Source: a virus
Length of the DNA stretch: 64,000 nucleotides
Reading direction: 5' to 3' (one strand)
Virus record (IMG/VR): IMGVR_UViG_3300006108_000010
Location: 57,598-121,597 of that record
The notes below the pieces were generated by a model. That model had not been told where the DNA came from and made no database searches. It saw nothing but the letters and a program-made list of their open reading frames with translations. A program made the position numbers and the translations under genes. Shown one piece after another: positions 1 to 64,000 of this stretch. Position 1 is the first letter of the stretch; each line of letters starts with the position of its first letter.

Positions 1-218
1 CTATTATCTTCTTCGTCTTCTGCATCAGGAGCAGATTCTTGTCCTGCCTTTTCTGGTACTTCTATCTCTGCTTGGGTTAATGGTTCTGTTCCCATTATAG
101 CAGTTGATGTAGCGGCAGCATTAGAACCATAATAAGGAAATGGTCTACCTGCTTCGTCTTCTTTAATTAGCTTAATACTTTCATACAGAGCTTCTAAACT
201 TTTAGAATCTTTATCCAT
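1..218 (-). CDS. Acidic protein of unknown function, C-terminus cut by window edge
   Basis: An open frame reads from an ATG at 218 leftwards off the window, giving 72 residues that begin MDKDSKSLEALYESIKLIKE. The N-terminus looks helical and charged. The visible end is strongly acidic (DAEDEED), with an Ala/Pro-rich middle. I do not recognise a family. The start is chosen because a late-type box (TAAGTATA) lies seven bases upstream, overlapping the stop codon of the preceding gene. The position at the end of a virion block suggests a late gene, but no function can be assigned. Confidence 0.75.
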   Translation of the reverse strand, partial: MDKDSKSLEALYESIKLIKEDEAGRPFPYYGSNAAATSTAIMGTEPLTQAEIEVPEKAGQESAPDAEDEEDN

Positions 219-225
219 CTTTCAT

Positions 226-233
226 TATACTTA
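226..233 (-). promoter_or_regulatory. Late-type promoter box TAAGTATA
   Basis: TAAGTATA lies on the minus strand, 7 bases before the ATG at 218, and overlaps the stop codon of the upstream gene. It resembles the T4 late box TATAAATA. The role is inferred from recurrence at other operon heads. Confidence 0.6.
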
Positions 234-980
234 CCAATGAAACGGGCATTTTGATTTCTTAACCTCACCCTCCTCAAAGGTTTTTTGAGACCTGAAATTC
301 TTAAGATATCTACCAAAGAATTCGGTATGAGCTTTCGTCCAAATTTTACTCAATACATTTCCCTCGTCCCATGAAAACTCTGATACAAACTTTTCTCTCT
401 TAAATGGAATGATTTGAACAAGAGGAGTTCCTTTTGGGATAAGACCACTAAAATCCTTTTTGAGAAAGAATGGCAGATTAATTGGAATTGGAAACTTATC
501 CGTATCAACCAATGCTGTCATGGTTTTAAATGGAAAGTCATCGTGGTGCAAAGGATGAGTGAAAAGACAAGACCAATTCTTGGGAGTCTTTACAGTCCAA
601 TAGTTTGTCCATTTGAAAACTTGAGTATAATGATTATCTGGAACTGGATACAACTCATGATATTCTTTTGATTGTAGCCCAACCAATTTGAGTTCATCCC
701 ATGCCCATTGAAACTTTATCTTATTCTCTCCTTCGTTAAACACCCATACATCACAAGGTAATGTAATAGTGTAACCTGCATTCATTGAATCTGTTACTGG
801 CATGCACATTTTGATTGTGCTGTTAGGATCATTATATCTATCCACACTCTTTTTATCGTTTGAATACGTTAGAGTATTCTTATACCAAGTTGGAACAATC
901 TTAGATGAAGGAACTGGTCTTGGGGCAATGTCAAGAAAATTTTTATCCGTTGCTATAAATTTAATGGGTATTTTTCTCAT
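231..980 (-). CDS. Conserved-looking phage protein of unknown function (249 aa)
   Basis: The protein begins MRKIPIKFIATDKNFLDIAP and ends in CPFHW. It is soluble, rich in Trp and Pro (for example PTWYKN, FKWTNYW, HPLHHDDFPF), with no signal peptide or membrane segment. The pattern of short Pro/Trp-rich beta segments recalls conserved hypothetical proteins of large phages, but I cannot name the family. A longer frame starts at a TTG at 1040, but that would overlap the divergent gene at 1031. The ATG at 980 is preferred because a sigma70-like promoter sits directly upstream. It is divergent from the fibre genes beginning at 1031. Confidence 0.75.
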   Translation of the reverse strand: MRKIPIKFIATDKNFLDIAPRPVPSSKIVPTWYKNTLTYSNDKKSVDRYNDPNSTIKMCMPVTDSMNAGYTITLPCDVWVFNEGENKIKFQWAWDELKLVGLQSKEYHELYPVPDNHYTQVFKWTNYWTVKTPKNWSCLFTHPLHHDDFPFKTMTALVDTDKFPIPINLPFFLKKDFSGLIPKGTPLVQIIPFKREKFVSEFSWDEGNVLSKIWTKAHTEFFGRYLKNFRSQKTFEEGEVKKSKCPFHW

Positions 981-989
981 ACTTTTATT

Positions 990-1017
990 ATTGTAGCAGA
1001 AAACCAAGAAATGTCTA
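990..1017 (-). promoter_or_regulatory. Possible sigma70-type promoter for the 249-aa gene
   Basis: On the minus strand TAGACA (1012-1017) and TACAAT (990-995) are separated by 16 bases. Each differs from the TTGACA/TATAAT consensus at one position. The predicted transcription start is about 2-3 bases before the ATG at 980. The element overlaps the divergent late-type box at 1016-1023. Confidence 0.45.
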
Positions 1018-1023
1018 TAAATA
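1016..1023 (+). promoter_or_regulatory. T4-type late promoter box TATAAATA
   Basis: An exact copy of the T4 late promoter consensus TATAAATA lies 7 bases before the ATG at 1031. With T4 geometry, transcription would start 1-2 bases before the ATG. Confidence 0.65.
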
Positions 1024-1030
1024 TTTGAAG

Positions 1031-1324: not shown

Positions 1325-1332
1325 TAAGTATA
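1325..1332 (+). promoter_or_regulatory. Late-type promoter box TAAGTATA
   Basis: TAAGTATA lies 7 bases upstream of the ATG at 1340, in the short gap after the preceding stop codon. Same spacing as the boxes before 218, 3180, 17342 and 23515. Confidence 0.6.
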
Positions 1333-3164: not shown

Positions 3165-3172
3165 TAAGTATT
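3165..3172 (+). promoter_or_regulatory. Late-type promoter box TAAGTATT
   Basis: TAAGTATT lies 7 bases upstream of the ATG at 3180, in the 25-base gap after the preceding stop. Confidence 0.6.
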
Positions 3173-9486: not shown

Positions 9487-9843
9487 CTATTTATTATGTT
9501 TTGCAAGAATTTCCAATATAGTGCTGCTCATCTCTTTAAATTCGGAATTAAACAAGTTAGCATTTTTGGATATCAAATTTAATTGTTTTATTACATTAAT
9601 TAATTGAATACCAATAGGATATGATTTTAAAATTTCTTGATATGCTTTTTGGGCTTCATCGAGTTCGATGGTTTTTTTATTAGAAACCATTGCTCCATTA
9701 TCATAATCACCTTCCCAATGCCATAATTTTAAATCAGAATATTCTTCTGGTAATTTCTTCTTAAGAATATTAATCTTGTCATTATTAGGCAATTCTGGAC
9801 TATATCCAATGAATTGTTTATTGGCGTTAAATAAAGCAAACAT
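9487..9843 (-). CDS. Small tail-region protein of unknown function (118 aa)
   Basis: The N-terminus MFALFNANKQFIGYSPELPN, followed by LKLWHWEGDYDNGAMVSN, is a compact beta domain of a kind seen in small proteins next to phage fibre genes. The second half is helical (LINVIKQLNLISKNANLF). It starts directly after the stop of the 294-residue gene and has no promoter box, so it belongs to that operon. A fibre-assembly or chaperone role is possible from location only; I do not recognise a family. Confidence 0.6.
   Translation of the reverse strand: MFALFNANKQFIGYSPELPNNDKINILKKKLPEEYSDLKLWHWEGDYDNGAMVSNKKTIELDEAQKAYQEILKSYPIGIQLINVIKQLNLISKNANLFNSEFKEMSSTILEILAKHNK
9488..9495 (-). promoter_or_regulatory. 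Late-type promoter box AATAAATA
   Basis: AATAAATA on the minus strand, 7 bases before the ATG at 9480. One mismatch to the T4 late box TATAAATA. It overlaps the stop-codon region of the upstream gene. Confidence 0.55.
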
Positions 9844-12303: not shown

Positions 12304-15300
12304 TTATTTCCAGTTTATTTTATATAGTGAAGTATTAGCAGGAGCTATTTTAGCAATATTTGCTTCTATACCAGCTTCAATTGCTGCTTTTACTTCGCCA
12401 TTATCAATATTTAAATTATGAATATTAATGTTAAAATATTTACTCTTACTACCAGGAAGCTGATTCTTATACCAGTATTTAATCTGTTCTATGTAATTTC
12501 TGTCTCCTACTGACATATTCCATAATAAAGTTCTATCTTTTGCACCATATTGAGATGATAGATATATTTGTTCAATTTCTCCTTGTGTCAAAGACTTATT
12601 ATACATTCTTAAATCTGCAACCTTGCCTACAAACTTATAACCATTATCAATTTGAATAATATCATTAAGCGTAGTATTTTGAATAGTTTCAGCACCTAAA
12701 AGTAATGATGTTCTGTAAGTGTAATATAACTGATAGATTTCAGGTGTAAAATCTTGCTCTGCAACTAGTATGGAATCAAGATATGCTTTGGCTGTACCAC
12801 TATAAGAATCAAATACGAATGCAAAATGATGCCAACCATTTGCAATATTGTTTAAATTATATGGTAAAGTTAAAAGATTATAATTTTCTGGATTTTGTCC
12901 ATTAGGTGTTGCTACTTTAAATTGCCAACCAAAACTTTTGGTAACCGTAGCAAATTTTCTAAGATATTGATAACCCGTAAAATCGCCTAATGTTGCCATT
13001 TGCATATTCGGATTATTTGTTAACCCTAAGAAATTCAATTTTGTTAAGATTGCACCGTTTTGATCAAGTGTATAAATTACTTCATCATTTAAATCTACCA
13101 ATAATACTCTATCATCTGTAGAGGCGGTCGTAACTTCACATTTATTGGAATATTGATCTTTTGGAACTCTTATAAAATTAATAAATCTTGGTTTAGCATA
13201 ATTGAAGAAACATGGATCTGGTGACAACCCAGACTTTGAACCAATTCTATTTGTAAATAAAATTTTATTATTAACTGTATCAATTTTTGATACACTATCT
13301 TGAGAGCTTAATACCCATAAATAATTGTCTGCATCAACAGACATTTGTTGAACCACACCTATGTTTGCAAATACAACTTGATTTTTATAAAGATTTCCAC
13401 CTACTACTTCCCAAACGTTATTATTGTTATCTATTACGGATTGTGTTCCGTAACATTGAATTAAATTATTATTCAAATCTATCTGGATAGTATTAACATT
13501 ATTTGATGGGAAAATACCACTTGATACGAATTTGCCATCTGGTGACATTACTACATAATTTTGTGTAGTATTATCGTAAATGTAAAAATTATTATTTCCG
13601 TCTAATTCAATTTGAGTTATGCTATTTAATTTTCCATTTAAATTTTGAGTTAAAACTGGATCATTAGTTGTTCTAATAATAATTTTATTATTAATATCAA
13701 ATTTTGTACCACCTATGCCAACTGTATCAAATACCCAATAACTATAATCTAAAAGTCTTTGTACTATTTTATTCGAACCCTTTACCAAATAGGAATCGGT
13801 TGCACTAACGCTTGGCAGTTTTGTAAATAAATAATTTAAGTTATAAACTTTAGATCCTGCTATTGGATCGTTACTATCGACTAATGTAATAATCGGCGTA
13901 GTTAAAGACGATTGGTTAATTAACCCAAATCCGCTTTCGTAATAGTTTCCGAATATTTGATTACCTGCAATATTTGTCCAATCAGGCGGATTTATCCATA
14001 ATGAAACAGTTAACTGATCCTGAGATAGTAATTGTGTCGTTGCTGGAAATAGTGCATGGTTTGATCCATCTAAGTTAATATAATCACCAACTAAATTGGT
14101 TGGGTTATTAAAATACAATATACCTTCACCCTGTAGTGGAGATTCATCAACAAGCGGAGATGATAACCATTGACTAATTGTTAAAATAGAATTAGCAGAA
14201 AGATGTTGAACAAAGTTTTTTCTGTTGTTAATACCCGTATGGAAATATCTATAAAATGCACCTGGTTCTAAATACATCTCAGAAGGTAAATCAAATGTAT
14301 AATTTTCTGTTAAATTTAACCTATCATTATATTCTATTACCTTTGCTGAAAGTGCTTGATCGGTCGTGTAATAAGCAGCGTTATAATATCTATCCATCCA
14401 CATTTTATCACCTGTCATAGTTCCAGATAACCATGAGCATAACCAAGTGTTATTGTATTTTGTAATGGATGGTGGTTGAGGAGAATCGGGAATTATTTGA
14501 GAGTAGTCTTGAATCTTTACAAATATTCTATCTGATGTAAACGGAATTTCTCCTGCGATTGCGCCATCTTCTATTAATCCAGCTGAACTTAACGGAACTC
14601 TTTCCGATGTTGGACTGAAAACAAATTGGGTGTCCTGATCACTTGGAAAATTCATTTCCAATGTATTTGCAGTATAACCCAAATACACATTATCTAATCC
14701 TTTATCTTGATTAGTTCCAGTATAAACATTTTCATATTTTCTTCTTACTCCATTTTGACCTTGAACGTAATCAAACCCAAAACTATAATTATATTCTGGT
14801 GTTTGATAATTTTTTAAACCGTGAATAGCTAACGGATAAACTACACCCTTTGATGTTTTAATTGGATATTGATATGGAAATATACCAAGATAATTTTGAG
14901 TATAAAGTGAATTAGCCGTTGATGGATTTACTGTTAAAGTACTTTGATTATAAGTCGGAGAAACTTCATAAGATACTAAAAAGCTATTCTTAATATCACT
15001 ATTAAGAGGCGGAACTTCTTGATAAGAAGTAAAGTTTAATGATGCCTCATGAGGAAATAACGTAGCAGATGTTAAATATGATAAGGAGCTTAAAACATAA
15101 AAGCCACTACTATTTTTAGTAACAGCATTTTGGAATCTGGGTAAAAGATTAGCGTCATCAATTTGGAAAAGAGATATCGTGTTCGGTCCTAACGCATAGT
15201 CGAATCTCTGAGCATCAACATATGTTGTTGCGCTACTTAAGGTTGGTACAATTTGAGGAGTAAAGATCAAACCATTATCTCCTGTAAATAAACTAGTCAT

Positions 15301-17349: not shown

Positions 17350-17357
17350 AATACTTA
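17350..17357 (-). promoter_or_regulatory. Late-type promoter box TAAGTATT
   Basis: TAAGTATT on the minus strand, 7 bases before the ATG at 17342, filling the 15-base gap between two genes. Confidence 0.6.
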
Positions 17358-23522: not shown

Positions 23523-23530
23523 AATATTTA
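23523..23530 (-). promoter_or_regulatory. Late-type promoter box TAAATATT
   Basis: TAAATATT on the minus strand, 7 bases before the ATG at 23515, overlapping the stop codon of the upstream gene. Confidence 0.6.
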
Positions 23531-27089: not shown

Positions 27090-27097
27090 TATATTTA
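27090..27097 (-). promoter_or_regulatory. Late-type promoter box TAAATATA
   Basis: TAAATATA on the minus strand, 4 bases before the ATG at 27085, inside the 14-base gap between genes. Confidence 0.5.
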
Positions 27098-37414: not shown

Positions 37415-37417
37415 GTT

Positions 37418-37427
37418 AATATTTATT
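37418..37427 (-). promoter_or_regulatory. Late-type box, AATAAATA/TAAATATT overlapping registers
   Basis: AATAAATATT on the minus strand can be read as AATAAATA (5 bases from ATG 37414) or TAAATATT (3 bases). It lies in the 35-base gap between two giant genes. Confidence 0.5.
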
Positions 37428-41154: not shown

Positions 41155-41160
41155 AATCTA

Positions 41161-42960: not shown

Positions 42961-42963
42961 TGT

Positions 42964-42971
42964 AATATTTA
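42964..42971 (-). promoter_or_regulatory. Late-type promoter box TAAATATT
   Basis: TAAATATT on the minus strand, 3 bases before the ATG at 42960. With T4 geometry the start of transcription would coincide with the ATG. Confidence 0.5.
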
Positions 42972-42973
42972 TC

Positions 42974-43552: not shown

Positions 43553-43570
43553 GAAAAGGGTAAATAGTTG

Positions 43571-43580
43571 TATAAATATA
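43571..43580 (+). promoter_or_regulatory. T4-type late promoter box TATAAATA
   Basis: TATAAATATA lies just before the plus-strand ATG at 43584. The exact T4 late box ends 5 bases from the ATG. Confidence 0.65.
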
Positions 43581-43583
43581 CTT

Positions 43584-44165: not shown

Positions 44166-45083
44166 GGCGTTTTCTATTGCGATTAAGCAACAGAAAAAAT
44201 TGATTTCGTGATCAATTACGAAATTATCCCTATACATATGCTCTCCTATTTCTAGGATAATTCTCTTCTTTATATTTTCTTTAATCTTTGTGGTTTCATA
44301 AAAGAAATCCAACAATGATTTTAATAGACTCTGGTAATCCGCCGAAAATGTCTTTTCATTTTCTATTACCATTTTCCTTATTTGAATTGCATCGAGTTTC
44401 GATAGTAAAGAACTATAAACATTTTCTGCTATGTTTTTTACTTCATTTATTTGATTGATAATCAAGGTTCCGGTAATTGAAAATCTCTGAAGATCATTAA
44501 TAATTCTCCTCATATCAGGGAAGTTATTTTTTACAAATGTAATAAACTCCCTCTGTGAACCTATATCGACATTTTCCTGCTTCAAGATGTTAATACATCT
44601 CTTTGCACACTCTGCTAAATCTGGCACTATATTAAAAAGCAAACATCTTGATTGAATTGGTTCGATGATTTTGTTGATGTAGTTTGAAGTAAGAATAAAT
44701 CTGGTCGTATCAGAATATTCTTCCATAACACTACGAAGAATTCTTTGGGCATCATTTGTAGTGCCACAAAACTCATCTAAAATGATTACTTTCTTCTTAC
44801 CGTCAAGTGAAGAAGTCTGAGCAAATAAAGTAACTTTGTTTCTTATTGTATCAATACCGTTTTCATCACTGGCATTGATATAAAGCGATTGACATTTTAG
44901 GATATCATTTACAATGATCTTTGCTAGAGTAGTCTTTCCTGTGCCAGCATGACCGTACAAAAGAAGATGGGGCGTATCTTCATTTATGCCCGAAAAGAAT
45001 TTCCTATTCTCTTCAGTGAGAACCAAGTCATCTAGTTTTTTAGGTCTGTAGCGTTCTACCCAAAGTTGATCATATAATCCCAT
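44154..45083 (-). CDS. gp44: Sliding-clamp loader large subunit gp44 (AAA+ ATPase)
   Basis: 309 residues against 319 in T4. Walker A is GHAGTGKT (residues 44-51). Walker B is VIILDEFC (99-106), with the DEF form typical of gp44. Sensor 1 is LTSN (131-134) and the SRC arginine-finger motif is IQSRC (144-147). Gp44 works with gp62 to load the gp45 clamp on primer ends at the replication fork, using ATP. The partner gp62 is not in this window. It is isolated among virion genes and has a sigma70-like promoter instead of the late-type box, which fits early expression. The 3' end overlaps the convergent gene by 12 bases. Confidence 0.95.
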   Translation of the reverse strand: MGLYDQLWVERYRPKKLDDLVLTEENRKFFSGINEDTPHLLLYGHAGTGKTTLAKIIVNDILKCQSLYINASDENGIDTIRNKVTLFAQTSSLDGKKKVIILDEFCGTTNDAQRILRSVMEEYSDTTRFILTSNYINKIIEPIQSRCLLFNIVPDLAECAKRCINILKQENVDIGSQREFITFVKNNFPDMRRIINDLQRFSITGTLIINQINEVKNIAENVYSSLLSKLDAIQIRKMVIENEKTFSADYQSLLKSLLDFFYETTKIKENIKKRIILEIGEHMYRDNFVIDHEINFFCCLIAIENALLS

Positions 45084-45089
45084 AACCTT

Positions 45090-45118
45090 ATCATAAGCTA
45101 TGGTTATTTAAATGTCAA
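45090..45118 (-). promoter_or_regulatory. Sigma70-type promoter for gp44
   Basis: On the minus strand a perfect -35 TTGACA (45113-45118), a 17-base spacer and a -10 TATGAT (45090-45095, one mismatch) precede gp44. The predicted start, 7 bases past the -10, is the A of the gp44 ATG, implying a leaderless transcript. The -35 overlaps the stop of the upstream 60-residue gene. Confidence 0.75.
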
Positions 45119-45297
45119 CCGTTAATCAAAGTTCTGCCATCGTTGTTAATATAATTTGACTGAATTTGGGTCTGTTGCCCCTGTGTTACTTGTTGTGCTC
45201 TCTGTGCGGCTGCTTGGATTAGTGACAAAATTGTATGAACTTCTGATGTTAAAATTGTATAAGTTCCTACGTTTTGAATTGTAATAGTTGTTGTCAT
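45115..45297 (-). CDS. Small protein of unknown function (60 aa)
   Basis: The protein begins MTTTITIQNVGTYTILTSEV, probably a short beta hairpin, followed by a helix rich in Gln/Ala (LIQAAAQRAQQVTQGQQTQI). No family recognised. It is divergent from gp16, with only 28 bases between the two ATGs. A TATATATT sequence lies 5 bases before its start, a weak version of the late box. Small head or tail accessory protein is possible, but there is no direct evidence. Confidence 0.55.
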   Translation of the reverse strand: MTTTITIQNVGTYTILTSEVHTILSLIQAAAQRAQQVTQGQQTQIQSNYINNDGRTLING

Positions 45298-45312
45298 ATG
45301 TTAATATATAGG

Positions 45313-45320
45313 TAAATATT
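45313..45320 (+). promoter_or_regulatory. Late-type promoter box TAAATATT
   Basis: TAAATATT lies 5 bases upstream of the ATG at 45326, inside the 28-base divergent gap. Confidence 0.55.
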
Positions 45321-45325
45321 AACAC

Positions 45326-45814
45326 ATGTCAAGCGATAACGAAATAAACTCCATTATAGAACAACTTAAAGCTGATTCTGTTCCTAGTGAACACGCAAAG
45401 CCTTATAAGCCAGTAGAGCACGAAGAAGTTAATGATGATAACGTTGGCGATTATGTTTATAAAAAATCTGCTGAGTTAGTTGAATCAACTTTAGGTGCGG
45501 TTCAAAATTTAAAAGATAGTGTACTGACAGGCAGCGACCCAAAAGAAATAGCTGCATTGTCTCAATTAATTAATTCAGCAACAAAAGCATTGGATCAACT
45601 AAATAAAATCAATATTCAAAATAAACAAAGTAAGAGTAATATTGAGATTAAAAAGATGGAAATTGCTGCTCATATGGAAAGACCTCCATTACCTAATACA
45701 ACTAATGTATTAATTGCAACGAGGGATGAAATTATGTCACAGATTTTCAACCCGAAAACATCTAAAAAACAACAATTAGAAATTGTTGATGCTGAATTTA
45801 AAAAAGAAGATTAA
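45326..45814 (+). CDS. gp16: Probable small terminase subunit, gp16-like (162 aa)
   Basis: Length equals T4 gp16 (164 aa). The layout is the same: an acidic disordered N-terminus, then DDNVGDYVYKKSAELVESTL, a long central helical hairpin with a short turn (TGSDPKEIAALSQLINSATK, then ALDQLNKIN), and a C-terminal segment VLIATRDEIMSQIF. The last segment is comparable to the VFxGSxxELxxxI tail of gp16 proteins. The small terminase recognises DNA and regulates the gp17 motor during packaging. Gp17 is not in the window. The gene is convergent with gp23 and followed by a strong hairpin. The assignment rests on layout and position, not on strong identity. Confidence 0.7.
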   Translation: MSSDNEINSIIEQLKADSVPSEHAKPYKPVEHEEVNDDNVGDYVYKKSAELVESTLGAVQNLKDSVLTGSDPKEIAALSQLINSATKALDQLNKINIQNKQSKSNIEIKKMEIAAHMERPPLPNTTNVLIATRDEIMSQIFNPKTSKKQQLEIVDAEFKKED

Positions 45815-46007: not shown

Positions 46008-47558
46008 TTAGAGGTAGTTTGCAGCAGCTGCATTACCTACGAAGCTTGTTCCGAGACCCTTAACTATGATAACGTGGTAGTATAAAGATGCACCAAAGAT
46101 ATGATCGACTACACCGTAGCGGGTCATAAGACCTACGCGTGGTGCAAAGTCGTTAGGACCAACTGTGCGCTGGATCATAACTGGGATGTATGGGCAATAT
46201 ACAATACCTGTGTCATAGTATTCGGTTCCCTTATAGCCTAAGAGGGCATACTCAAGCGGATTTGCTCTTTGACCTGAAAGATACTGCGCATCAGTACGGG
46301 TATCACGGTAGACGGTGAAACGTCCTCCGAGAGTACCAACCTTTGCGATTCCGGTTGGCTGCGTGTTAACGTTGCCGTTAACTGGCATCCACTGGAATTC
46401 TGGTAACATTTCAAGAATTGCGCACACACGAGGTGTAGCAATGATGAAGTTAGCAGAACCTCTACGGTTACGGATTGCGACACGATTAGCCTCGACAATT
46501 ACCTTACTGTAGAAATCACGGTTTCTCTCTCCTAACCAACGTGCGTCAGCGGATTGAGCGTACCAATATGTGTATCCGTTAGGTGTACCTGCATTGAGAC
46601 ATACTTGGATCATACGCATGACCATTTCACGGTCGATTTCAGCCTGAATTTCATATGACATTGCATTTGTTAATTCAGAGTCGATATCGAGTCCGTTCAT
46701 GTTCTTAAGATCCTGTTCAAGTTCAACTGACCAACGAGCAGCGAGGCGGCGTGTGCCAGCTTCAACTGCTGTCTTGCTGAACTCAACAACAACCTGTGGG
46801 ATGTTGCCAGTTAATTCATAGTCACTGAGAAGTGCAGCAACACCCTGATCTTGACCAACGATGGTGAAGTCAGCGGAGTTTGCACCACTAATTCCTTGGA
46901 AGTATGATGCAGCACTTGTGCCTGTGAATCTTGTATCTAAGAACTGATAACCCAATTCTGCATTTCGTGCAGGACTGAATGATGTATCAGCGTTTGCTCC
47001 GTTAGGTCCTTCAACATTGGAACGATCCCATGTGGAATCTCCAGATGCTTCGCTATTGTTATTGGTTGTTCCTGCATTACCAGGTCCGAGTGTGGTCGAA
47101 CCAGTTGCATAACCATCAATACCATTAGCACCTAATGAAGTAGCCTCATAGCGGTAACGTAAAGCAAATGCAAGTCCGACTGGGCCGCTCATTGGCTGTA
47201 CACCTACGATCTCATTCGTGATAAGCTCTGGGAAAGTACGGCGAACCATTGGGATGAGTACCTTTGGTAAGCGTGAATCTCCTTGAGCATATGTATCTCC
47301 AGAGAACTGATTGTATGTTGCAGCTGTTCCGAAAACACCGCCGTTGGTAGAACTACCACCTGAGATATTGTAGGATGCTTCTTCGATGCACCATCTTTCT
47401 TGGTTCTCCATGAGAATAGCAGTAGTTAAGCGTTGGTGCTCGTTTTCGATTGGTGCAACCTTATCGGATGAATAATCGAGAACTGGGGCCCACTTTTCAA
47501 CTAACTGCTGAGCACGAGAACGATCAATGTAGCCTGTAGCTGGATTGGAATTTCTCAT
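46008..47558 (-). CDS. gp23: Major capsid protein gp23
   Basis: 516 residues against 521 in T4. The family signature is present at residues 100-136: LIPMVRRTFPELITNEI followed by VGVQPMSGPVGLAFALRYR. A plausible gp21 cleavage site, I-E-E before Ala61 (CIEEASYN), fits the T4 rule of cutting after [LI]xE and lies close to the T4 position (Glu65). The N-terminal ~60 residues would then be the removed scaffold-binding peptide. Base composition is more GC-rich and codon use more regular than in the fibre genes, as expected for a highly expressed gene. It has its own Shine-Dalgarno sequence and a strong terminator. Confidence 0.97.
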   Translation of the reverse strand: MRNSNPATGYIDRSRAQQLVEKWAPVLDYSSDKVAPIENEHQRLTTAILMENQERWCIEEASYNISGGSSTNGGVFGTAATYNQFSGDTYAQGDSRLPKVLIPMVRRTFPELITNEIVGVQPMSGPVGLAFALRYRYEATSLGANGIDGYATGSTTLGPGNAGTTNNNSEASGDSTWDRSNVEGPNGANADTSFSPARNAELGYQFLDTRFTGTSAASYFQGISGANSADFTIVGQDQGVAALLSDYELTGNIPQVVVEFSKTAVEAGTRRLAARWSVELEQDLKNMNGLDIDSELTNAMSYEIQAEIDREMVMRMIQVCLNAGTPNGYTYWYAQSADARWLGERNRDFYSKVIVEANRVAIRNRRGSANFIIATPRVCAILEMLPEFQWMPVNGNVNTQPTGIAKVGTLGGRFTVYRDTRTDAQYLSGQRANPLEYALLGYKGTEYYDTGIVYCPYIPVMIQRTVGPNDFAPRVGLMTRYGVVDHIFGASLYYHVIIVKGLGTSFVGNAAAANYL

Positions 47559-47569: not shown

Positions 47570-47574
47570 CTCCT
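47570..47574 (-). promoter_or_regulatory. Shine-Dalgarno AGGAG for gp23
   Basis: AGGAG on the minus strand, 11 bases before the ATG at 47558. It is the only clear ribosome binding site I saw in the window. The long spacer is A-rich. No late-type box is directly adjacent, so gp23 is probably read from upstream transcripts. Confidence 0.65.
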
Positions 47575-47610: not shown

Positions 47611-48528
47611 TTACTTCCTTACGGAGTAACTTTCGGTTTTCTTTAACTCACTCAGATATCCGTTAACTTGGGATGAACCCTCGTTAGATATAGCTACTGA
47701 TTCAGTAACTACAGAACTGCTAGGAACTTTAGCATCTCTGGTTTTAGCAGATTGCTTAGCTTCACTAACAAGTTCAGACGCAGTTTTTTCTTCACTGCGT
47801 TCGAACATCTCAACAACATAGTTAAAATTCTCTTCAATATAAGAGGAATCCTTGTCGTTTAACAATTTAACGATAAAATCTTTTTTGCTTGATGGCATCC
47901 CCTTGGTCTTTTGTTCAAGGATAATGGTTGCCTCAACCATCTTAAGCTTCTCAACGAGAGCTTCATTTTCTTTATAAGACTCATTGAGCTTCTCATTAAG
48001 AGAGTCAATTGCCTTTTTACCTTCAGCAATTGTGGACTTGATACCAGAGTCAATGGACTCCTGATCAATTCCGACAATCTGACGGATTTTGTCAAGCTGT
48101 GTACGAGCGTATGTGTTCTCCACAGCTTCTTGTAATTGATTTGTTGGAAGTGCTTTATCTAACGAAATATCAATGAAGTTACTAACTTCATCAATCATAG
48201 AATTTTTGAATGCAAGAGCTTTTTCATTTAAAGCCTTGCGATAATGAGTTGCAAGCTTTTCTAACTTAGCGGAATGATCTTCGTTAATTGCTGTTAAAAC
48301 TTTCTTGAGTTTGTCGGTGTGATCGGTATCAATAGCTTCTAAAAGTTTTTCTAATTTTTCAGCATGATCAACATCCTGTTTTGAGAGAGCACTTTCAACT
48401 TGGAGTGATAAGCGAGATTCAACTTTCTCATTAACTGCTGCTTCGAATGCTTCAGCAATTGCAGTTGCTGTCTCTTCGGAAATTACACTCTTGTCTAAGT
48501 TTTCTAAAATAGCTTTGAAATTCTTCAT
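47611..48528 (-). CDS. gp22: Prohead core scaffold protein gp22
   Basis: The 305-residue protein is almost entirely helical and highly charged, with long Lys/Glu coiled-coil segments (DHAEKLEKLLEAIDTDHTDK, then LKKVLTAINEDHSAKLEKLA), as expected of a T4 scaffold. T4 gp22 is 269 aa. The N-terminus MKNFKAILENLDKSVISEET is typical. Gp22 forms the inner core around which gp23 assembles, then is digested by gp21. It lies between the small basic prohead protein and gp23, the T4 order. The upstream sequence holds only a poor match to the late box (TAAGTTAT, 10 bases from ATG). Confidence 0.88.
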   Translation of the reverse strand: MKNFKAILENLDKSVISEETATAIAEAFEAAVNEKVESRLSLQVESALSKQDVDHAEKLEKLLEAIDTDHTDKLKKVLTAINEDHSAKLEKLATHYRKALNEKALAFKNSMIDEVSNFIDISLDKALPTNQLQEAVENTYARTQLDKIRQIVGIDQESIDSGIKSTIAEGKKAIDSLNEKLNESYKENEALVEKLKMVEATIILEQKTKGMPSSKKDFIVKLLNDKDSSYIEENFNYVVEMFERSEEKTASELVSEAKQSAKTRDAKVPSSSVVTESVAISNEGSSQVNGYLSELKKTESYSVRK

Positions 48529-48806: not shown

Positions 48807-48814
48807 ATTACTTA
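48807..48814 (-). promoter_or_regulatory. Late-type promoter box TAAGTAAT
   Basis: TAAGTAAT on the minus strand, 9 bases before the ATG at 48797. Confidence 0.45.
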
Positions 48815-48830: not shown

Positions 48831-49499
48831 TTAATAGCTTTTTAATGCATTAATAAATGAAACAAATTGTTCACGTAAATAAGCATCTTTATTTTTCAAT
48901 GGAAGAGTTGAAATATTTTTTTGGAAATTGTCATAAAGTGCTTCAAGCTCTCCATTGTCTTTTAATACCCATTGCTTGGATTCTAAAATACCATTAACAA
49001 AGGCTGTAGGAACTGATGGATCAGCAACAACGTCAATTGCTACTAAACGAAAATCTGAAACTTTGCCAATTCCGTTTTCTTGATCGACACGACCAAGAGC
49101 ACGAGAAGATACACCAAGTTTAACGCCATCTAAAATTAACGAACGAACAACTTGTCCAACAGGAGTTGAAAGGATCTTTGATTTACCTTCAAAAATATTG
49201 CCATCTTGTTTTAATTCGGTGACGATATGGCAAGCTCTTTCTAAATTAATTTCTGGTGATGTTGGGTGATTAAGTTCACCCGTTGCACGATTACCCTTAA
49301 TCATTTCCTTATCATAACGAGCAACTTCACGAACCATTTCTTCTAATGGATAAACACGCTTATTGCGATTTGCTTCATTAGCCATTAAGAATGGTCCTTT
49401 AATGTACATGTTTGAAGGCGAATTACGATTTTGTTCTTCAACCAAATACTTTAATTCGTAGGTAGGTTGCTCGACCAAAAGATTATAAACGTTACTCAT
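48831..49499 (-). CDS. gp21: Prohead maturation protease gp21
   Basis: 222 residues against 212 in T4. Catalytic elements of the herpes-assemblin-like serine protease fold are visible: H78 in GELNHPTSPEIN, the serine in GVSSRALG (S131 or S132), and D160 in VVADPSVPTAF. The enzyme cleaves gp22, gp23 and other core proteins after [LI]xE during head maturation and then degrades itself. Its place next to the basic prohead gene and gp22 matches T4. Two late-type boxes precede it. Confidence 0.95.
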   Translation of the reverse strand: MSNVYNLLVEQPTYELKYLVEEQNRNSPSNMYIKGPFLMANEANRNKRVYPLEEMVREVARYDKEMIKGNRATGELNHPTSPEINLERACHIVTELKQDGNIFEGKSKILSTPVGQVVRSLILDGVKLGVSSRALGRVDQENGIGKVSDFRLVAIDVVADPSVPTAFVNGILESKQWVLKDNGELEALYDNFQKNISTLPLKNKDAYLREQFVSFINALKSY

Positions 49500-49505: not shown

Positions 49506-49527
49506 ATTACTTAGTCTTCTATTTATA
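49506..49527 (-). promoter_or_regulatory. Double late-type promoter for gp21: TAAGTAAT and TATAAATA
   Basis: On the minus strand TAAGTAAT (49506-49513) is 6 bases from ATG 49499. An exact TATAAATA (49520-49527) is 20 bases from it, so one short and one longer leader are possible. Confidence 0.6.
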
Positions 49528-49974
49528 CTAGTTAAGATGTTTTTCATTAAGAATTAAAAAAGTATATCCATTTTTTTTACACCATTGACGAGCCGCATCC
49601 CATTTTGCTTGATTTACTGCCCATGTAACTTTTTCATAAAGCATAGTAGATTGCTTTTTCTTCGATGTAATCGTAGGTGGTTTCGTTTGTTTTTCGGGTT
49701 TAACTTCAATTAAAAGTTTCTGCATCTTGCCAGTGCTATCTTTTAATGAGGCAACCAAATCAACAAAGTATCTATGTACTTTGCCGTCTTTTGGTGATTG
49801 ATATGGGATTATAACGGATTCGCTTCCCCATGTTAATATATTAGGATTTTTATCCAGATATCTAAAACTAATAAGTTCTAGTTTTGATCTATATATTATA
49901 GGAATACTTCCTTTGTATTTTTCGGGATTTAGCGGTTGATAAATTCCCTGTGTGTAGTTGCGGTTTTTTTTCAT
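49528..49974 (-). CDS. gp4: Head completion nuclease-fold protein gp4
   Basis: 148 residues against 150 in T4. Strong family features: IYRSKLELISFRYLDKNPNI, IIPYQSPKDGKVHRYFVDLV, KLLIEVKPEKQTKPP, and VNQAKWDAARQWCKKNGYTF. These contain the PD-(D/E)XK-type residues E33, D72 and E90-x-K92; the usual PD is VD here. In T4, gp4 (also called gp50) acts in head completion after packaging, before tail attachment. It lies between the neck gene and gp21. Confidence 0.92.
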   Translation of the reverse strand: MKKNRNYTQGIYQPLNPEKYKGSIPIIYRSKLELISFRYLDKNPNILTWGSESVIIPYQSPKDGKVHRYFVDLVASLKDSTGKMQKLLIEVKPEKQTKPPTITSKKKQSTMLYEKVTWAVNQAKWDAARQWCKKNGYTFLILNEKHLN

Positions 49975-50042: not shown

Positions 50043-51005
50043 TTATCCAAGATAGAACGAAATAGGATCTCTATCAACCATATCGGTCATGATTTCCTTT
50101 TCCAATTCTGCTTTTTCTGCTTCGCCTTGACGGAGAATATCTTGATAGTTTACGGTTTGGTTTCCGAATAAATTTGTTCCAGCGTATTTACCTCTGGTGT
50201 GACCCATAGTAATTTTGCAAAGAGCCATCGTGTATCTATAAACCCATAATTGGCTTACGATATCTTTAATTGCTTTTTGTACTCTGCAACCAATCAACCC
50301 AAAATAAGCGGATAAGAATGGATTTGGTTCAGGTATAATTTTTAAAATTTGAGTCTCAGGATAAAATCTAAGATAAGGTTTAAGAGCGAGGACTTTTTCT
50401 CTTGTATCAATCCAAGATTTAAGTGCTTGCCAAGTAACTAAATCATATCCTACATTACCAAGAAGTTGACCAAAGTATGCTTGTTGAGCAATTGTATTTT
50501 CAATTGTGAAAAGTGTATTAACACCAGAATTATTTCCCTCTTCGTATGAAAAAACATCAATAACTTTTCTATATTGATTCATGTCATAATCCCAACCCAT
50601 AGAACCTGGGAATGCACTAGGCGGCGGAGTAAATGTTGTTCCGTAATATTGTGAAGCAGTACCACCATAATAACCTGAACCTGTTGTACTAGCTGGTGGA
50701 TTAAAGGTTGTAGAATTATACATATCAGGTGTTATGTTAATTAACCTATCGATATGTAAGCCTACGCCTTGGGTATATAAATCTGATCTAAAAATTAGAT
50801 ATTCTTCTGTTGTACCAGAAAACTTTGTAAACCATTCACATGCAATATCAATATTCTCATAGATTTGCTCACTTGATAATTCGATTTGAATTAGCGGTTC
50901 GCCTAATCCCCTTCTGATTCTTTGCGCTAATAAATCATAGGTGGTAACCTTTGGTGAAAAGGTCATTGATCCGTGGAATCTGTTTGGTAGTACTGAATTA
51001 GCCAT
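50043..51005 (-). CDS. gp13: Neck protein gp13-like (320 aa)
   Basis: The N-terminal part RIRRGLGEPLIQIELSSEQI followed by YENIDIACEWFTKFSGTTEE is the pattern of T4-like gp13 neck proteins (LG.P...VELT..QI..CID.A...F). T4 gp13 is 309 aa. Later segments include RKVIDVFSYEEGNNSGVNTL and LRFYPETQILKIIPEPNPFL. Gp13 closes the portal after packaging and joins head to tail. The gene follows gp15 here, whereas T4 has 13-14-15; gp14 was not found in the window. A late-type box lies 4 bases before the ATG. Confidence 0.75.
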   Translation of the reverse strand: MANSVLPNRFHGSMTFSPKVTTYDLLAQRIRRGLGEPLIQIELSSEQIYENIDIACEWFTKFSGTTEEYLIFRSDLYTQGVGLHIDRLINITPDMYNSTTFNPPASTTGSGYYGGTASQYYGTTFTPPPSAFPGSMGWDYDMNQYRKVIDVFSYEEGNNSGVNTLFTIENTIAQQAYFGQLLGNVGYDLVTWQALKSWIDTREKVLALKPYLRFYPETQILKIIPEPNPFLSAYFGLIGCRVQKAIKDIVSQLWVYRYTMALCKITMGHTRGKYAGTNLFGNQTVNYQDILRQGEAEKAELEKEIMTDMVDRDPISFYLG

Positions 51006-51009: not shown

Positions 51010-51017
51010 AATACTTA
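51010..51017 (-). promoter_or_regulatory. Late-type promoter box TAAGTATT
   Basis: TAAGTATT on the minus strand, 4 bases before the ATG at 51005; it also covers part of the upstream stop region. Confidence 0.55.
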
Positions 51018-51800
51018 TGGTATTGTATTGATAATATTCGGAGAAATATAATCAGAATAAAAATCAGAAAAATCTTGTAATATGGATGCAGGTGGAACTG
51101 GCGTATCTGCTTCCGCTGTTCCATCGGAACCCATAGTTAAAAATTTAGAATCAATCGTATAAATTTTATTAATAACATTATTAAAGGCTTTAAACATCCA
51201 TCCTTTGATAGTAAATGAAGTTGTAGCAGAAATTCTATATGGTTGAGTGCCAGTAAGGTCGTTTGGGTATTGTAAGTTCACATTACCACTCCATAAAACT
51301 TCACTTCTTATTTCATATGGAATAGATGAATTTTTAAGATTTGGTAACTTCCAAGAAACTACAATATATGGATCGCAATAAGGAATAAAGTTTGTTAAAA
51401 TTTGATCCATATCAGATTGATAACGTGTTATAATTGTCATCTCAACTGCTATGTTTACAGGAACAGGTTGTAAAACTGGTAATATATATTCACCACTTCC
51501 GTCAGTTGAATCGTATTCAACTTTAAATCCATCAATCTTATTAACAACTCTACTTTGATCTCTGGAAATAGAAGAAAGATTTATAGCAATAACAGGAACC
51601 GTTAAGCCACCAGCCGCTGGGCTATTTAAATTACTGAATACTCTTTGTTTTGGTGAATATACAAACAAAACTTTGTCGCCACTTGTTGGAGCAACCAAAG
51701 TTTCTGTGTTATCATAACGTTTAATGATAACATCATTGAAAGCCTGACAAAATTGTTCAATAAGAGTCTGGACTTCCCAATTAAAGGTATAGTTCTTCAT
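51015..51800 (-). CDS. gp15: Tail sheath stabiliser/completion protein gp15
   Basis: 261 residues against 272 in T4. The pattern NIAVEMTIITRYQSDMDQIL, TNFIPYCDPYIVVSW and ISATTSFTIKGWMFKAF matches the gp15 core (ELSIFTRYEDDMxQIxEQILPYF ... FEVNGWMY). Gp15 forms a hexameric ring that terminates the tube and sheath and connects to the neck. It lies directly upstream of the gp13-like gene with a late-type box 5 bases from its ATG. Confidence 0.88.
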   Translation of the reverse strand: MKNYTFNWEVQTLIEQFCQAFNDVIIKRYDNTETLVAPTSGDKVLFVYSPKQRVFSNLNSPAAGGLTVPVIAINLSSISRDQSRVVNKIDGFKVEYDSTDGSGEYILPVLQPVPVNIAVEMTIITRYQSDMDQILTNFIPYCDPYIVVSWKLPNLKNSSIPYEIRSEVLWSGNVNLQYPNDLTGTQPYRISATTSFTIKGWMFKAFNNVINKIYTIDSKFLTMGSDGTAEADTPVPPASILQDFSDFYSDYISPNIINTIP

Positions 51801-51805: not shown

Positions 51806-51813
51806 AATACTTA
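51806..51813 (-). promoter_or_regulatory. Late-type promoter box TAAGTATT
   Basis: TAAGTATT on the minus strand, 5 bases before the ATG at 51800. Confidence 0.6.
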
Positions 51814-52069: not shown

Positions 52070-52077
52070 ATTACTTA
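52070..52077 (-). promoter_or_regulatory. Late-type promoter box TAAGTAAT
   Basis: TAAGTAAT on the minus strand, 5 bases before the ATG at 52064, directly abutting the stop codon of the upstream gene. Confidence 0.55.
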
Positions 52078-52548: not shown

Positions 52549-54411
52549 TTATGCTGCTGGTGTTTCCGTAGCTTCTGCGCCAGCTTCAGGAACTTCCGTT
52601 GTAGCTGCTTCCGGTGCTTGTGTCGTTTCTGCTGTAGCACCACCACCGAATTCTGGGATTTCAGCTGCCGTTGGTGCTCCACCGCCTCCACCCGCTGCTG
52701 GTGCGGCTGCGCCACCTGCTCCAAGTGCACCAGCGGCTTGCTCTGCCGCTTGAATGTGTTCACGCCAGTTGGGTCCGGTCTGAGCAATCTGATCCAACTC
52801 CCATTTGAGTGCTGCATCCTTTCTGAGCCATTCCATGTTTTCGGAAATCTTGGCATCGTTTAATCCGAGATAGTGACGCTGGGCAAATGTCTTAGAAATT
52901 GATTCATTCTGAGACATGTTATTGAAATTATTATACTTTAATTCAAATTCTTGATTCTTTCTAATTGCAAAATAATTGGAAGGAGGATTAAAGTGAATAT
53001 CGAAATACGATTCATGCATTCCGTATTCTTTCCACCATCCACGGAGTTTTAAATGAGTAATGAATGTTTCTTTAAGACCTGTTGCAAATTGATTTTGAAT
53101 ACGAACAACAAATTTTGCAAAACGTAATTCTTCTCTTAAAATTTCTGCACCATCTTTATATCCCTCGTCTGGGTTCATACGAGTTAAAGGAACCTTGAGG
53201 CTCTTATAAAGTTTATTGACAAAATAGGTCAAATCTTCAATCTTACCAAGATTTGCTCCACCTTGCATAAGTTCTACATCACTTCCTGCTTCACCTTGAC
53301 GCTTTGCAAACCAAAAAGCATCCAACATAGATTGTGGATCGTAAATGTTACCAGCACCCTTTCCAGATTGCGCATCATATGTCTTTTTAGACCAATATGC
53401 TTGCATGAGTTGTTTTAAATATGCCTCTGCTTTAGCGGGTGGCATATTACCAACATCAATTTTAAATTTAAGACGTTCTGGTGCACGAACCATTCGATAA
53501 ATGACTACCGCATCTTCAAGTAATGAAACCTGCTTATATGAACGACGAGCATTTTCAAGGAACGGAACCTTAATTGACATGTCTTCATTCCACATGCCAG
53601 AATTAATATAGGTAATCTGATTTCCTTGGAATGTGATTAATTGTTGTTGCAAGGAATTGGAATTATTCTGTGATGAAGGTGGAGCAGATGGGCTATTTGG
53701 ACTACTTGCGTGTTGTTGTAAGCTAATTGGTTTTTGGAAAATGAAGTTTTCAATTACGTTATTTTGAACATTATCGTAAACTGGATTGATCAATTCACCT
53801 GGTATATTCAACACACCAATAATACCTAATTCTCTTTTTCTTTCGTGAACAACGTTTTCAAAGAAAATTTCACCTTCGATTAAAAGCTGTCTACAATATC
53901 CCCAACCTTTGTGCTCCAAGTCAAAAACTTGAATGAATTTGTAAAACTCTTTTTCAATTTCACTTCTCTCATTTGAGTCTAATTTACCAAATGTTGAAAA
54001 TCCAATTCTTAAAAATTTATCCTCATCATCCTTATTTAGAAATTCATCACAAATTTCATCTAAACAGTCTGCGATTTCTGCATAAGATCCCATTCTGCGA
54101 TACTCTGCAATTCTTCTGATTTTATCAACGTCAACACTGGCATAAATGTATTTGTGATATGCGTGATCAGAGGTAAAGGAGCCAGGTCCGTACTGATCCG
54201 TATTCTGGCGCATTGCGGGACCGGTAATAACGGACTGCTGCATGACACGATATTCATGTCTTTTTGATAAGCGGTCGAAAAGTTCATATCTTGGATTTCC
54301 AATATCAGCATCCACTGCGTCTTGGATATAAGGCAATCTAGAAAGAATATTTGATATGAAATTTCTACCGTTATCTGGCTGTCTATTCGGTGTAGGTAAT
54401 ACGTCAGGCAT
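52549..54411 (-). CDS. gp20: Portal vertex protein gp20
   Basis: 620 residues against 524 in T4. Core features: SLLEDAVVIYRMVRAPERLK, FKIDVGNMPPAKAEAYLKQL, SGKGAGNIYDPQSMLDAFWF, and LYKSLKVPLTRMNPDEGYKD. All are typical of the T4-like portal wing and stem. The C-terminal ~80 residues form an Ala/Pro/Gly/Thr low-complexity tail (AAAPAAGGGGGAPTAAEIPE), longer than in T4 and probably disordered. A second insertion of Ser/Pro/Gln-rich sequence lies near residue 230-255. The dodecameric portal is the DNA entry channel. Two late-type boxes precede it. Confidence 0.95.
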   Translation of the reverse strand: MPDVLPTPNRQPDNGRNFISNILSRLPYIQDAVDADIGNPRYELFDRLSKRHEYRVMQQSVITGPAMRQNTDQYGPGSFTSDHAYHKYIYASVDVDKIRRIAEYRRMGSYAEIADCLDEICDEFLNKDDEDKFLRIGFSTFGKLDSNERSEIEKEFYKFIQVFDLEHKGWGYCRQLLIEGEIFFENVVHERKRELGIIGVLNIPGELINPVYDNVQNNVIENFIFQKPISLQQHASSPNSPSAPPSSQNNSNSLQQQLITFQGNQITYINSGMWNEDMSIKVPFLENARRSYKQVSLLEDAVVIYRMVRAPERLKFKIDVGNMPPAKAEAYLKQLMQAYWSKKTYDAQSGKGAGNIYDPQSMLDAFWFAKRQGEAGSDVELMQGGANLGKIEDLTYFVNKLYKSLKVPLTRMNPDEGYKDGAEILREELRFAKFVVRIQNQFATGLKETFITHLKLRGWWKEYGMHESYFDIHFNPPSNYFAIRKNQEFELKYNNFNNMSQNESISKTFAQRHYLGLNDAKISENMEWLRKDAALKWELDQIAQTGPNWREHIQAAEQAAGALGAGGAAAPAAGGGGGAPTAAEIPEFGGGATAETTQAPEAATTEVPEAGAEATETPAA

Positions 54412-54415: not shown

Positions 54416-54440
54416 ATTATTTAGTGTAATATTATACTTA
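54416..54440 (-). promoter_or_regulatory. Late-type promoter boxes for gp20: TAAATAAT and TAAGTATA
   Basis: On the minus strand TAAATAAT (54416-54423) is 4 bases and TAAGTATA (54433-54440) is 21 bases before the ATG at 54411. This mirrors the double arrangement before gp21. Confidence 0.5.
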
Positions 54441-61953: not shown

Positions 61954-61955
61954 AA

Positions 61956-62714
61956 TTAACTAGATACTGAAGGGATCACCGTAGATACACTCGCATATAA
62001 TGTCATATCATCGTAATAATAATTCTCCAATGCGGTGATTTGTTCCGGTGTTAATTCGGGTTTTAATAATGAATTTGTATTATTAATAACTGGTAATGGT
62101 GATTGTAAACCAATATCAGAAGCTAATTGATCAAGTTGAGTGGCAAAATCATAATATTTAATATTTGGAAAATTGCCAATAATAATACTTTGTGGTCTGT
62201 AGTGCCAATTTAAAGTTCCTCTATCCTGTTCAACCAACCAATCAATAAAATCTCCTACTGCGGTGAGTTGTGGAACACCTTTAAGTTTTTTTGCAAATGC
62301 ACTCTTGAATCTTTCAATTGGATGTCTAACAACGGCATGAGGAATACCAGTTGGAACGCTTGAAATTGGAAGTTGTGTACTATATTGCATAATACCAGCA
62401 CCAAAATCTATAGGACTAATACTTGGAAAAAATGTTTGTGCTATTTGGGTTGTAAGAGTTGTACTTCCTGCTCTTCTAATGTTTGCAAGAGAATGACCAT
62501 TAGGAAGATTAAAATATATACTTTGATAACTTTCTGTAACCAAATTTAACTCGTTTGCTTTATTTGTAACTTCTTCTTGAGTTTGAGCAAGAAATATCAA
62601 TGGAGAAAATGGAACAAACTTACCAGATAATTCATAAATTTGGGCAGTTCCATTTGGATACCCAAAAAATAAACCATAATAAGGGTTTATTAATTCATTC
62701 TGTGTTGCACTCAT
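61956..62714 (-). CDS. Sulfotransferase-like protein within fibre cluster (252 aa)
   Basis: Residues 80-91 (RRAGSTTLTTQI) resemble the PAPS 5'-phosphosulfate loop, and 128-140 (VVRHPIERFKSAF) closely match the 3'-phosphate-binding motif VRxPxxRxxSAF of the sulfotransferase family 2 group. The ~75 N-terminal residues (YYGLFFGYPNGTAQIYELSG) do not belong to the core fold and look like a small beta domain. It differs clearly from the sulfotransferase at 55422. It sits in a fibre operon 2 bases before a fibre gene, so the likely acceptor is a virion fibre, or a glycan attached to it. Activity is unproven. Confidence 0.72.
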   Translation of the reverse strand: MSATQNELINPYYGLFFGYPNGTAQIYELSGKFVPFSPLIFLAQTQEEVTNKANELNLVTESYQSIYFNLPNGHSLANIRRAGSTTLTTQIAQTFFPSISPIDFGAGIMQYSTQLPISSVPTGIPHAVVRHPIERFKSAFAKKLKGVPQLTAVGDFIDWLVEQDRGTLNWHYRPQSIIIGNFPNIKYYDFATQLDQLASDIGLQSPLPVINNTNSLLKPELTPEQITALENYYYDDMTLYASVSTVIPSVSS

Positions 62715-62720
62715 ATATTA

Positions 62721-62728
62721 TATATTTA
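62721..62728 (-). promoter_or_regulatory. Late-type promoter box TAAATATA
   Basis: TAAATATA on the minus strand, 6 bases before the ATG at 62714. Confidence 0.55.
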
Positions 62729-62784
62729 GTATTTAAAAACGTTATTGTGTAGACACATATCTTCTTTGTAATATAGTTATATTT

Positions 62785-63999
62785 TTAAGATGTATAGTTC
62801 CAAAGTTGAATTGCTTGATTTGTTCCGTTTACATTCACGATTAAAAATGTTCCAGATGCTGTTACCGGATTTACAAATGTTGTGGGTGCAGAAGTTATAT
62901 TTAATGAACTTGCATATATTGTATTTGTAGAACTAATATTTCCAACAACTGTTAAATTTGTATTTGGTGTTCTCGTACCAATTCCAACATTACCATTGGG
63001 ATTAATACGCATTCTTTCATTGCCACTTAATGTACCACCAGTAAAGAACGTTAAACTACTTGTTGTTGATGCTGCGCCTAATACAAGATTTGCACTCGTT
63101 GAGTAAACATACGAGTCTCCAGCATTAACTACATTGAATGTTGGGCTATAAAGATTACCATTATATTTTGTACTAGCTATACCTAAGTCCAAATAATTAA
63201 TATTATCATCATTATATAATGAAATATCCGTACTGGAACTAACACTTGGCGTAATATTTTGTATTTGATTAAATACAGATCCGCTAGCAGAAGATATAAT
63301 AGTTAATGGAGCAGAATTTAACTTTGCAATATTAGAAGTTGAACCAAATTGAGCAGATGGTGAAGCTACTAATCCTTGAGAAGAAATATTATTAACAAAT
63401 GTAAAATTATTTGCACTAACTGATATGTTAGATCCCAAAATAAATGAATTTAATCCATTTAAAAAGTTATTACATCCATTTAAAATTGTATTGTAGCGAC
63501 CGCAAATGCTATTGTTACAACCTCCGCCGATTAAATTGTAAGGACTGTTATAATTAATGCAATTAGTGTTTCCACCAAGAATTGTATTATAATAACCAGA
63601 TGCAGAATTTGATCCGTAAGTTGGATTTATATTACAGTTAGATGGATTAACATAATAAGCTTGACTAGATAGTTTGCTAAATGTTGAAGTGTTATAAGAA
63701 GGATTATTTGTTGCGGAATTTGAATTTACATAACTATAAACACTAGAATTGTTAGCCGATGCAGCTTGTAAGAAAGATATAGAGTTCCAATTGGCAGAAT
63801 TCGAATTTACAGAACTATAAACAGATGCATTGTTTCCACTTTGAGAATTAAAAGAAGAATAAACAGATTTATCATTAGCTGATAAGGCTTGTAAGAAAGA
63901 TATTGAACTCCAATTAGCCGAATTTGAGTTTACTGAACTGTAAACAGATTGGTCATTAGTTGAAAGAGCTTGTAAGAACGATATTGAATTCCAATTTGC
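62785..63999 (-). CDS. Tail fibre, C-terminal part only (runs off window edge)
   Basis: The frame is open from the stop at 62785 to the right edge (405 codons visible); the true start is beyond the window. From the edge inwards it has SANW-type units (NSANWNSISFLQALS, SANDKSVYSSFNSQSG), a few Cys GGxxN repeats (LIGGGCNNSICGRYNTIL), the FILGSNISVSANNFTFVNN linker, a module shared with the gene at 20198 (YNGNLYSPTFNVVNAGDSYV, then FFTGGTLSGNERM), GNVGIGTRTPNTNLTVVGNI, and a short tip ending IQLWNYTS. It is built from the same parts as the other fibres but with a minimal tip. Confidence 0.85.
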   Translation of the reverse strand, partial: ANWNSISFLQALSTNDQSVYSSVNSNSANWSSISFLQALSANDKSVYSSFNSQSGNNASVYSSVNSNSANWNSISFLQAASANNSSVYSYVNSNSATNNPSYNTSTFSKLSSQAYYVNPSNCNINPTYGSNSASGYYNTILGGNTNCINYNSPYNLIGGGCNNSICGRYNTILNGCNNFLNGLNSFILGSNISVSANNFTFVNNISSQGLVASPSAQFGSTSNIAKLNSAPLTIISSASGSVFNQIQNITPSVSSSTDISLYNDDNINYLDLGIASTKYNGNLYSPTFNVVNAGDSYVYSTSANLVLGAASTTSSLTFFTGGTLSGNERMRINPNGNVGIGTRTPNTNLTVVGNISSTNTIYASSLNITSAPTTFVNPVTASGTFLIVNVNGTNQAIQLWNYTS

Positions 64000-64000
64000 T

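Follow-up and report, generated by a model that had tools for sequence, protein, structure and literature searches.

How would the late genes of a T4-like phage be translated if the promoter box of each lay almost against its start codon? This question is raised by a 64,000-nucleotide stretch of an IMG/VR virus record (here the window; positions 57598-121597 of the 121,597-base record), the record being an incomplete fragment of an uncultured T4-like phage. The window encodes a T4-type head and tail module, and an earlier note, made from its letters alone, had placed a TAARTATW-like box immediately before the ATG of 19 of its genes. In T4, the textbook case of late transcription, promoter and ribosome-binding site are distinct elements; in the lineage described here the two roles appear to have been fused, such that the position of the promoter sets the start of translation. 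We consider it very likely that the box is a late promoter of the gp55 type from which messages with leaders of 0-6 bases arise, making late messages leaderless or nearly so.

Placement of the late box

The gap reported throughout is the number of bases from the end of the 7-mer TAARTA(T/A) to the ATG, and gene starts were called mechanically, ATG only. Eighteen of the 19 genes carry this 7-mer 4-10 bases before the ATG, in line with the earlier note; the nineteenth, 9480, has TAAATAG only and is the weakest case, because its final three bases form the stop codon of the preceding gene. Where doubtful starts had been flagged, orthologues favour 43584 over 43551 and 48797 over 48830. The sites are as follows.

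227..233, minus strand: late box TAAGTAT, gap 8 to ATG 218
1018..1024, plus strand: late box TAAATAT, gap 6 to ATG 1031
1325..1331, plus strand: late box TAAGTAT, gap 8 to ATG 1340
3165..3171, plus strand: late box TAAGTAT, gap 8 to ATG 3180
9487..9493, minus strand: doubtful box TAAATAG, one mismatch, before ATG 9480; contains the upstream gene's stop
17351..17357, minus strand: late box TAAGTAT, gap 8 to ATG 17342
23524..23530, minus strand: late box TAAATAT, gap 8 to ATG 23515
27091..27097, minus strand: late box TAAATAT, gap 5 to ATG 27085
37419..37425, minus strand: late box TAAATAT, gap 4 to ATG 37414; predicted fully leaderless
42965..42971, minus strand: late box TAAATAT, gap 4 to ATG 42960 (gp6-like baseplate wedge); predicted fully leaderless
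43573..43579, plus strand: late box TAAATAT, gap 4 to ATG 43584; start backed by orthologue G001_257
45313..45319, plus strand: late box TAAATAT, gap 6 to ATG 45326; overlaps the divergent sigma70-type promoter of gene 45297
48808..48814, minus strand: late box TAAGTAA, gap 10 to ATG 48797
49507..49513, minus strand: late box TAAGTAA, gap 7 to ATG 49499 (gp21 protease)
51011..51017, minus strand: late box TAAGTAT, gap 5 to ATG 51005 (gp13-like head-tail adaptor)
51807..51813, minus strand: late box TAAGTAT, gap 6 to ATG 51800 (gp15-like sheath stabiliser)
52071..52077, minus strand: late box TAAGTAA, gap 6 to ATG 52064
54417..54423, minus strand: late box TAAATAA, gap 5 to ATG 54411 (gp20 portal)
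62722..62728, minus strand: late box TAAATAT, gap 7 to ATG 62714

A box at gap 3-10 thus precedes 18 of the 40 window genes, compared with 1.33 +/- 1.13 (maximum 6) in 2000 dinucleotide shuffles of the same upstream regions. The longer forms of the motif are not over-represented in the window, where 13 copies of TATAAATA were observed against 18.5 expected and 36 copies of TAARTATW against 55, and TAARTAT is rarer than its dinucleotide expectation in all genomes tested. Since placement nevertheless lies far above the shuffles, the signal resides in where the box stands and not in how often it occurs. The aligned core is xTAAATAt, its fourth base being either A or G, a -10 core of the TATAAATA type.

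For comparison, we assembled 80 capsid-protein relatives from IMG/VR (61-100% identity), with G001 and G002 (75-77% capsid identity) and G005 (63%) exceeding 200 kb. Four orthologues of the gp13-like gene 51005 carry a box at gap 6, and five orthologues of the gp15-like gene 51800 carry one at gap 5-8. At the orthologous start of 3180, a box is present in G001 (gap 7) and G003 (gap 5) and absent from G002 and G005.

Gene classes and predicted leaders

The box is unevenly distributed among genes. Within the whole record it is found at 0/34 abutting genes. Among same-strand genes it precedes 16/43 where the intergenic gap is at least 15 and 6/6 where that gap is 9-14, and it precedes 6/18 divergent genes. 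The 12 abutting window genes that the earlier note had listed as lacking the box do lack it (0/12), and the equal frequency before internal operon genes that it had named as an argument against its view is not seen in the record. Across seven genomes, the box is found at 32/497 abutting genes versus 158/660 head genes (Fisher p = 1e-16), and among T4 orthologues at 31/70 late genes versus 1/36 early genes. These head-abutting and late-early contrasts back the note's position that the distribution fits a promoter better than a ribosome-binding site. Sigma70-type promoters, by comparison, occur among the T4 orthologues at three early genes and no late gene. Promoter class is also conserved, with 171 box-box orthologue pairs versus 77 expected and 7 box-sigma70 pairs versus about 53 expected from the class frequencies. 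Orthologues share only 37% identity over the 20 bases that precede the box, and in the gap-4 and gap-5 sets no base stands out as strongly conserved over about 13 positions before it, a profile that stops short of the -35 region.

T4 late promoters span -13 to -6 (PMC1524935). With TAARTAT ending at -5 in this geometry, RNA at gap 4 would begin with the A of the ATG itself; since the first RNA base is the fifth after TAARTAT, gaps of 4-10 correspond to predicted leaders of 0-6 bases, as the earlier note had estimated, and leave no room for a ribosome-binding site between box and ATG. The predicted 5' ends agree with the relatives, whose gap distribution has its edge at exactly 4. In relatives poor in Shine-Dalgarno (SD) sequences, boxes at gaps 0 through 6 number 1, 3, 2, 5, 66, 51, and 27, peaking at 4-5 and falling sharply below 4. 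A count free of gene calls in six relatives gave the same picture, with ATG following TAARTAT 32 times at gap 4 and 44 times at gap 5 compared with about 10 at most other gaps. GTG followed at gap 4 17 times in that count, with several of these GTGs opening long frames. An SD lies upstream of only 7/165 box genes with gaps of 3-6, and SD is near background in these genomes except at gp23, the major capsid gene, and at the abutting genes of G005.

Early genes obey the same near-ATG rule. In these phages, the full sigma70-type pattern is TTGACA-N17-TATAAT; ATG follows sigma70-type sites (TTG..-N16-18-TANNNT) 67 times at gap 6 versus about 17 elsewhere, and with the -10 hexamer at -12 to -7, gap 6 is the leaderless position. 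The near-ATG rule proposed earlier for the late box therefore stands and has to be widened, as sigma70-type promoters are placed likewise. The window holds two examples.

45090..45118, minus strand: sigma70-type promoter TTGACA-N17-TATGAT, -10 six bases before ATG 45083 (gp44 clamp loader, early gene)
45303..45332, minus strand: sigma70-type promoter TTGACA-N18-TATATT, -10 five bases before ATG 45297

The early message of the gp44 gene is accordingly positioned as a predicted leaderless one. Between the divergent genes 45297 and 45326, a 28-base intergenic stretch holds a sigma70-type -10 element on the minus strand together with a plus-strand late box, with early and late starts packed back to back. 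In bacteria, a TA-like signal some 10 bp ahead of the start is an established mark of leaderless genes (PMC3160421), and both promoter classes described here have a -10 element at about that distance from the start codon.

In the mechanism that we propose, the box would serve as the -10 element of a late promoter of the T4 type, recognised by host RNA polymerase with a gp55-type late sigma factor, which together would open the DNA at the box. In this uncultured T4-like branch, the box would have moved next to the start codon, so that the RNA of each late transcription unit would begin 0-6 bases before the ATG; the ribosome would then initiate on a 5'-terminal AUG, and the first gene would be translated leaderless or nearly so. 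Sigma70-type promoters of other genes, replication genes included, would be positioned in the same way. The later genes of a unit lack both box and SD and would probably rely on coupled or re-initiating translation; coupling can serve them because they follow so closely.

The major capsid gene would be the exception, retaining an SD-bearing leader.

47570..47574, minus strand: Shine-Dalgarno AGGAG, 11 bases before the ATG (47558) of the major capsid gene, which has no box

An SD precedes the major capsid gene in 35/75 otherwise SD-poor loci versus 24/674 other genes (p = 9e-24). The earlier note's point that no room is left for a Shine-Dalgarno sequence thus holds for box genes and needs correction for this gene. 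Retention of an SD here, at what is normally the most highly expressed gene, makes it probable that the host ribosome is able to use such sequences. By eye, a hairpin-like sequence also precedes the capsid gene start in G001, G002, and G004, comparable to the one between genes 22 and 23 of T4.

Alternative explanations and the SD-keeping subgroup

Could the box be something other than a promoter? An A/T-rich translation-initiation element (Kozak-like or S1-binding) within ordinary long leaders would account for its fixed position relative to the ATG and for the near-background SD level in these genomes. We regard this as improbable, since abutting genes need translation equally and yet none of the 34 in the record has the box, which is borne by late genes only and is depleted elsewhere in the genomes. 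Furthermore, a sister subgroup has the same 7-mer mostly 15-17 bases out, before an SD, and the second promoter class is placed likewise, at the distance proper to it. Chance in a window of about 32% GC, or mimicry of the box by the TAA that stands at many ends of tightly packed genes, has next to no probability: the shuffles reject both origins (18 observed versus 1.3), the motif is under-represented overall, and the box occurs at divergent starts, where a stop codon is not expected. Alternatively, the box may be a promoter whose true start codon lies farther downstream behind an ordinary SD, in which case the messages would not be leaderless. Starts are predicted, and N-terminal agreement between orthologue pairs is about 49%, roughly equal for box and other genes. 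However, many box genes align with their orthologues from residue 1 (e.g., 45326, 48797, 49499, 51800, and 54411), ATG follows TAARTAT at gap 4-5 even without gene calls, and the low SD count upstream of box genes again argues against such a shift, making this explanation highly doubtful.

Several observations weigh against leaderless late messages as the general rule. Gaps in the window's close relatives (at least 70% capsid identity) spread over 4-12, and some leaders in these relatives should therefore reach about 8 bases. The strict motif patterns leave about half of the head genes without either promoter motif. The 121.6-kb record, an incomplete one, yielded no gp55 of its own, and the gp45 family was found in one relative only; the window has the gp44 clamp loader. 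Across the 51 loci that have at least 8 genes, near-box and SD fractions correlate only weakly (rho = -0.29), SD being almost absent from most loci. Finally, translation from long read-through transcripts is also conceivable: the promoters may be as described, with most translation coming from polycistronic read-through by non-SD initiation and leaderless monocistronic messages being minor. In its favour, the genes stand close together on a single strand, and internal ones likewise lack an SD. We nonetheless hold this to be unlikely, as the edge falls exactly at gap 4 and the near box is kept in orthologues despite diverged flanks, both of which indicate selection on the distance to the ATG.

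With the all-loci correlation being weak, the contrast between the two layouts rests on the sister subgroup (L079, L083, L049, L037, and L082), whose capsids are 61-65% identical to the window's. In this subgroup the same box lies mostly at gap 15-17; among 12 genes with a box at gap 14-22, 11 have an SD after the box, of the AAGGAG type, e.g., TAAGTATTTTAAAGGAGAACATT-ATG. The near box (gap 3-10) is present in 3/78 of its genes and an SD in 48/78, compared with 214/688 and 47/688, respectively, in the remaining loci (six or more genes each). SD loci cluster on the capsid tree, with 2 changes versus 4.9 in shuffles; this allows a putative single origin of the SD subgroup and does not fix the direction of change. 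Both the small SD-type contigs and the leaderless contigs yielded no gp55, being short fragments and so uninformative on this point. A related subgroup with the old layout makes the change between SD-led and leaderless translation approachable as an evolutionary switch in which promoter and genes are shared and the proteins are similar.

Known systems, phage factors, and neighbouring features

The box shares with T4 late promoters (gp55/gp33/gp45; TATAAATA at -13 to -6) the core TAAATA, its use at late structural genes, a gp55 homologue in relatives, and the lack of anything strongly conserved just upstream. In T4, however, boxes lie mostly 17-35 bases from the ATG with an SD between, compared with 4-10 bases and no SD here, in agreement with the earlier note's point that T4 late messages carry ribosome-binding sites; a fourth-position G (TAAGTAT) is also common here, unlike in T4. 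No T4 gene start has a box at gap 3-10. T4 has five TAARTAT-N4-ATG sites, each within a short open frame of 6-66 codons. The cyanophages and pelagiphage P-SSM2, Syn9, and HTVC008M, which are the closest cultured relatives of the window's gp23 and gp44, have the same box type, but mostly about 15-35 bases before the ATG. Lambda cI is a single phage gene with a leaderless message, whereas here a large share of head genes across a phage lineage is concerned. In bacterial "TA-led" genes (Actinobacteria and Deinococcus-Thermus; PMC3160421), the -10 element likewise ends a few bases before the start codon; unlike these, the phages described here have two sigma specificities, early and late. The AR9 paper remarks in passing that phage transcripts "are often leaderless" and gives AR9's own leaders as 26-491 nt. 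T4-type late promoters are well known, but searches of the open-access literature turned up neither their lineage-wide fusion with the translation start nor any account of T4-like phages with leaderless late messages; this does not prove novelty.

Use of a gp55-type factor would be consistent with the search that the earlier note had proposed, which recovered a phrog_234 homologue in 6/10 larger relatives (G001, G002, G004, G005, G007, and G008; E 1e-24 to 1e-29). On the translation side, bS21 homologues (L148-L150) are encoded by all three relatives larger than 200 kb (G002 134233-134376, G001 70324-70455, and G005 39344-39463). bS21 sits at the anti-Shine-Dalgarno site of the ribosome, and a link to leaderless initiation is possible. 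Each genome has 8-20 tRNA genes; a tRNA-Met(CAT) at L002 14754-14828 (minus strand, outside the window), and another in G005 (14333-14406), have by eye a C1:C72 mismatch and an initiator-like body, such that these phages may carry their own initiator tRNA. No IF3 was found in the phages. It is a tentative and rather unlikely extension that the whole expression programme has been rebuilt on leaderless initiation, with ribosomes steered by the phage bS21 and initiator-like tRNA-Met and the capsid gene alone left on an SD, its output set separately.

Leaderless late messages would predict a host that translates such messages efficiently, which offers a lead to the host. Bacteroidota promoters differ from the TTGACA/TATAAT type. 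A Bacteroidota host is disfavoured, because the early promoters of these phages resemble TTGACA/TATAAT. The bS21-encoding phages described in PMC9723584 are Bacteroidetes phages; the three largest relatives encode bS21 too, but the early promoters here are sigma70-like. A scan of genome contigs for the capsid protein gave only two distant matches (33-34%), both in metagenome-assembled genomes. The closest cultured gp23 proteins are those of cyanophages, at about 33-34% identity, which places the window on a separate, uncultured branch. For annotators of these phages, the position of the box relative to the ATG provides a start-codon rule. The head, tail, and replication genes identified in the window are listed below.

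41161-42960: gp6-like baseplate wedge
44154-45083: gp44 clamp loader
46008-47558: gp23 (major capsid)
47611-48528: gp22
48831-49499: gp21 protease
49528-49974: gp4-like
50043-51005: gp13-like head-tail adaptor
51015-51800: gp15-like sheath stabiliser
52549-54411: gp20 portal

Two further features were observed. A stretch of G000:C1 at about 29700-45300 (L003/L004) is GC-richer (41-49%) and made up of small genes whose leaders are C/A-rich and mostly lack both box and SD. G001 has orthologues of these at 26-61% identity, which speaks against an assembly chimera. In addition, G001 encodes both adenylosuccinate synthetase (PurA/PurZ-like) and IMP dehydrogenase families (L095-L098).

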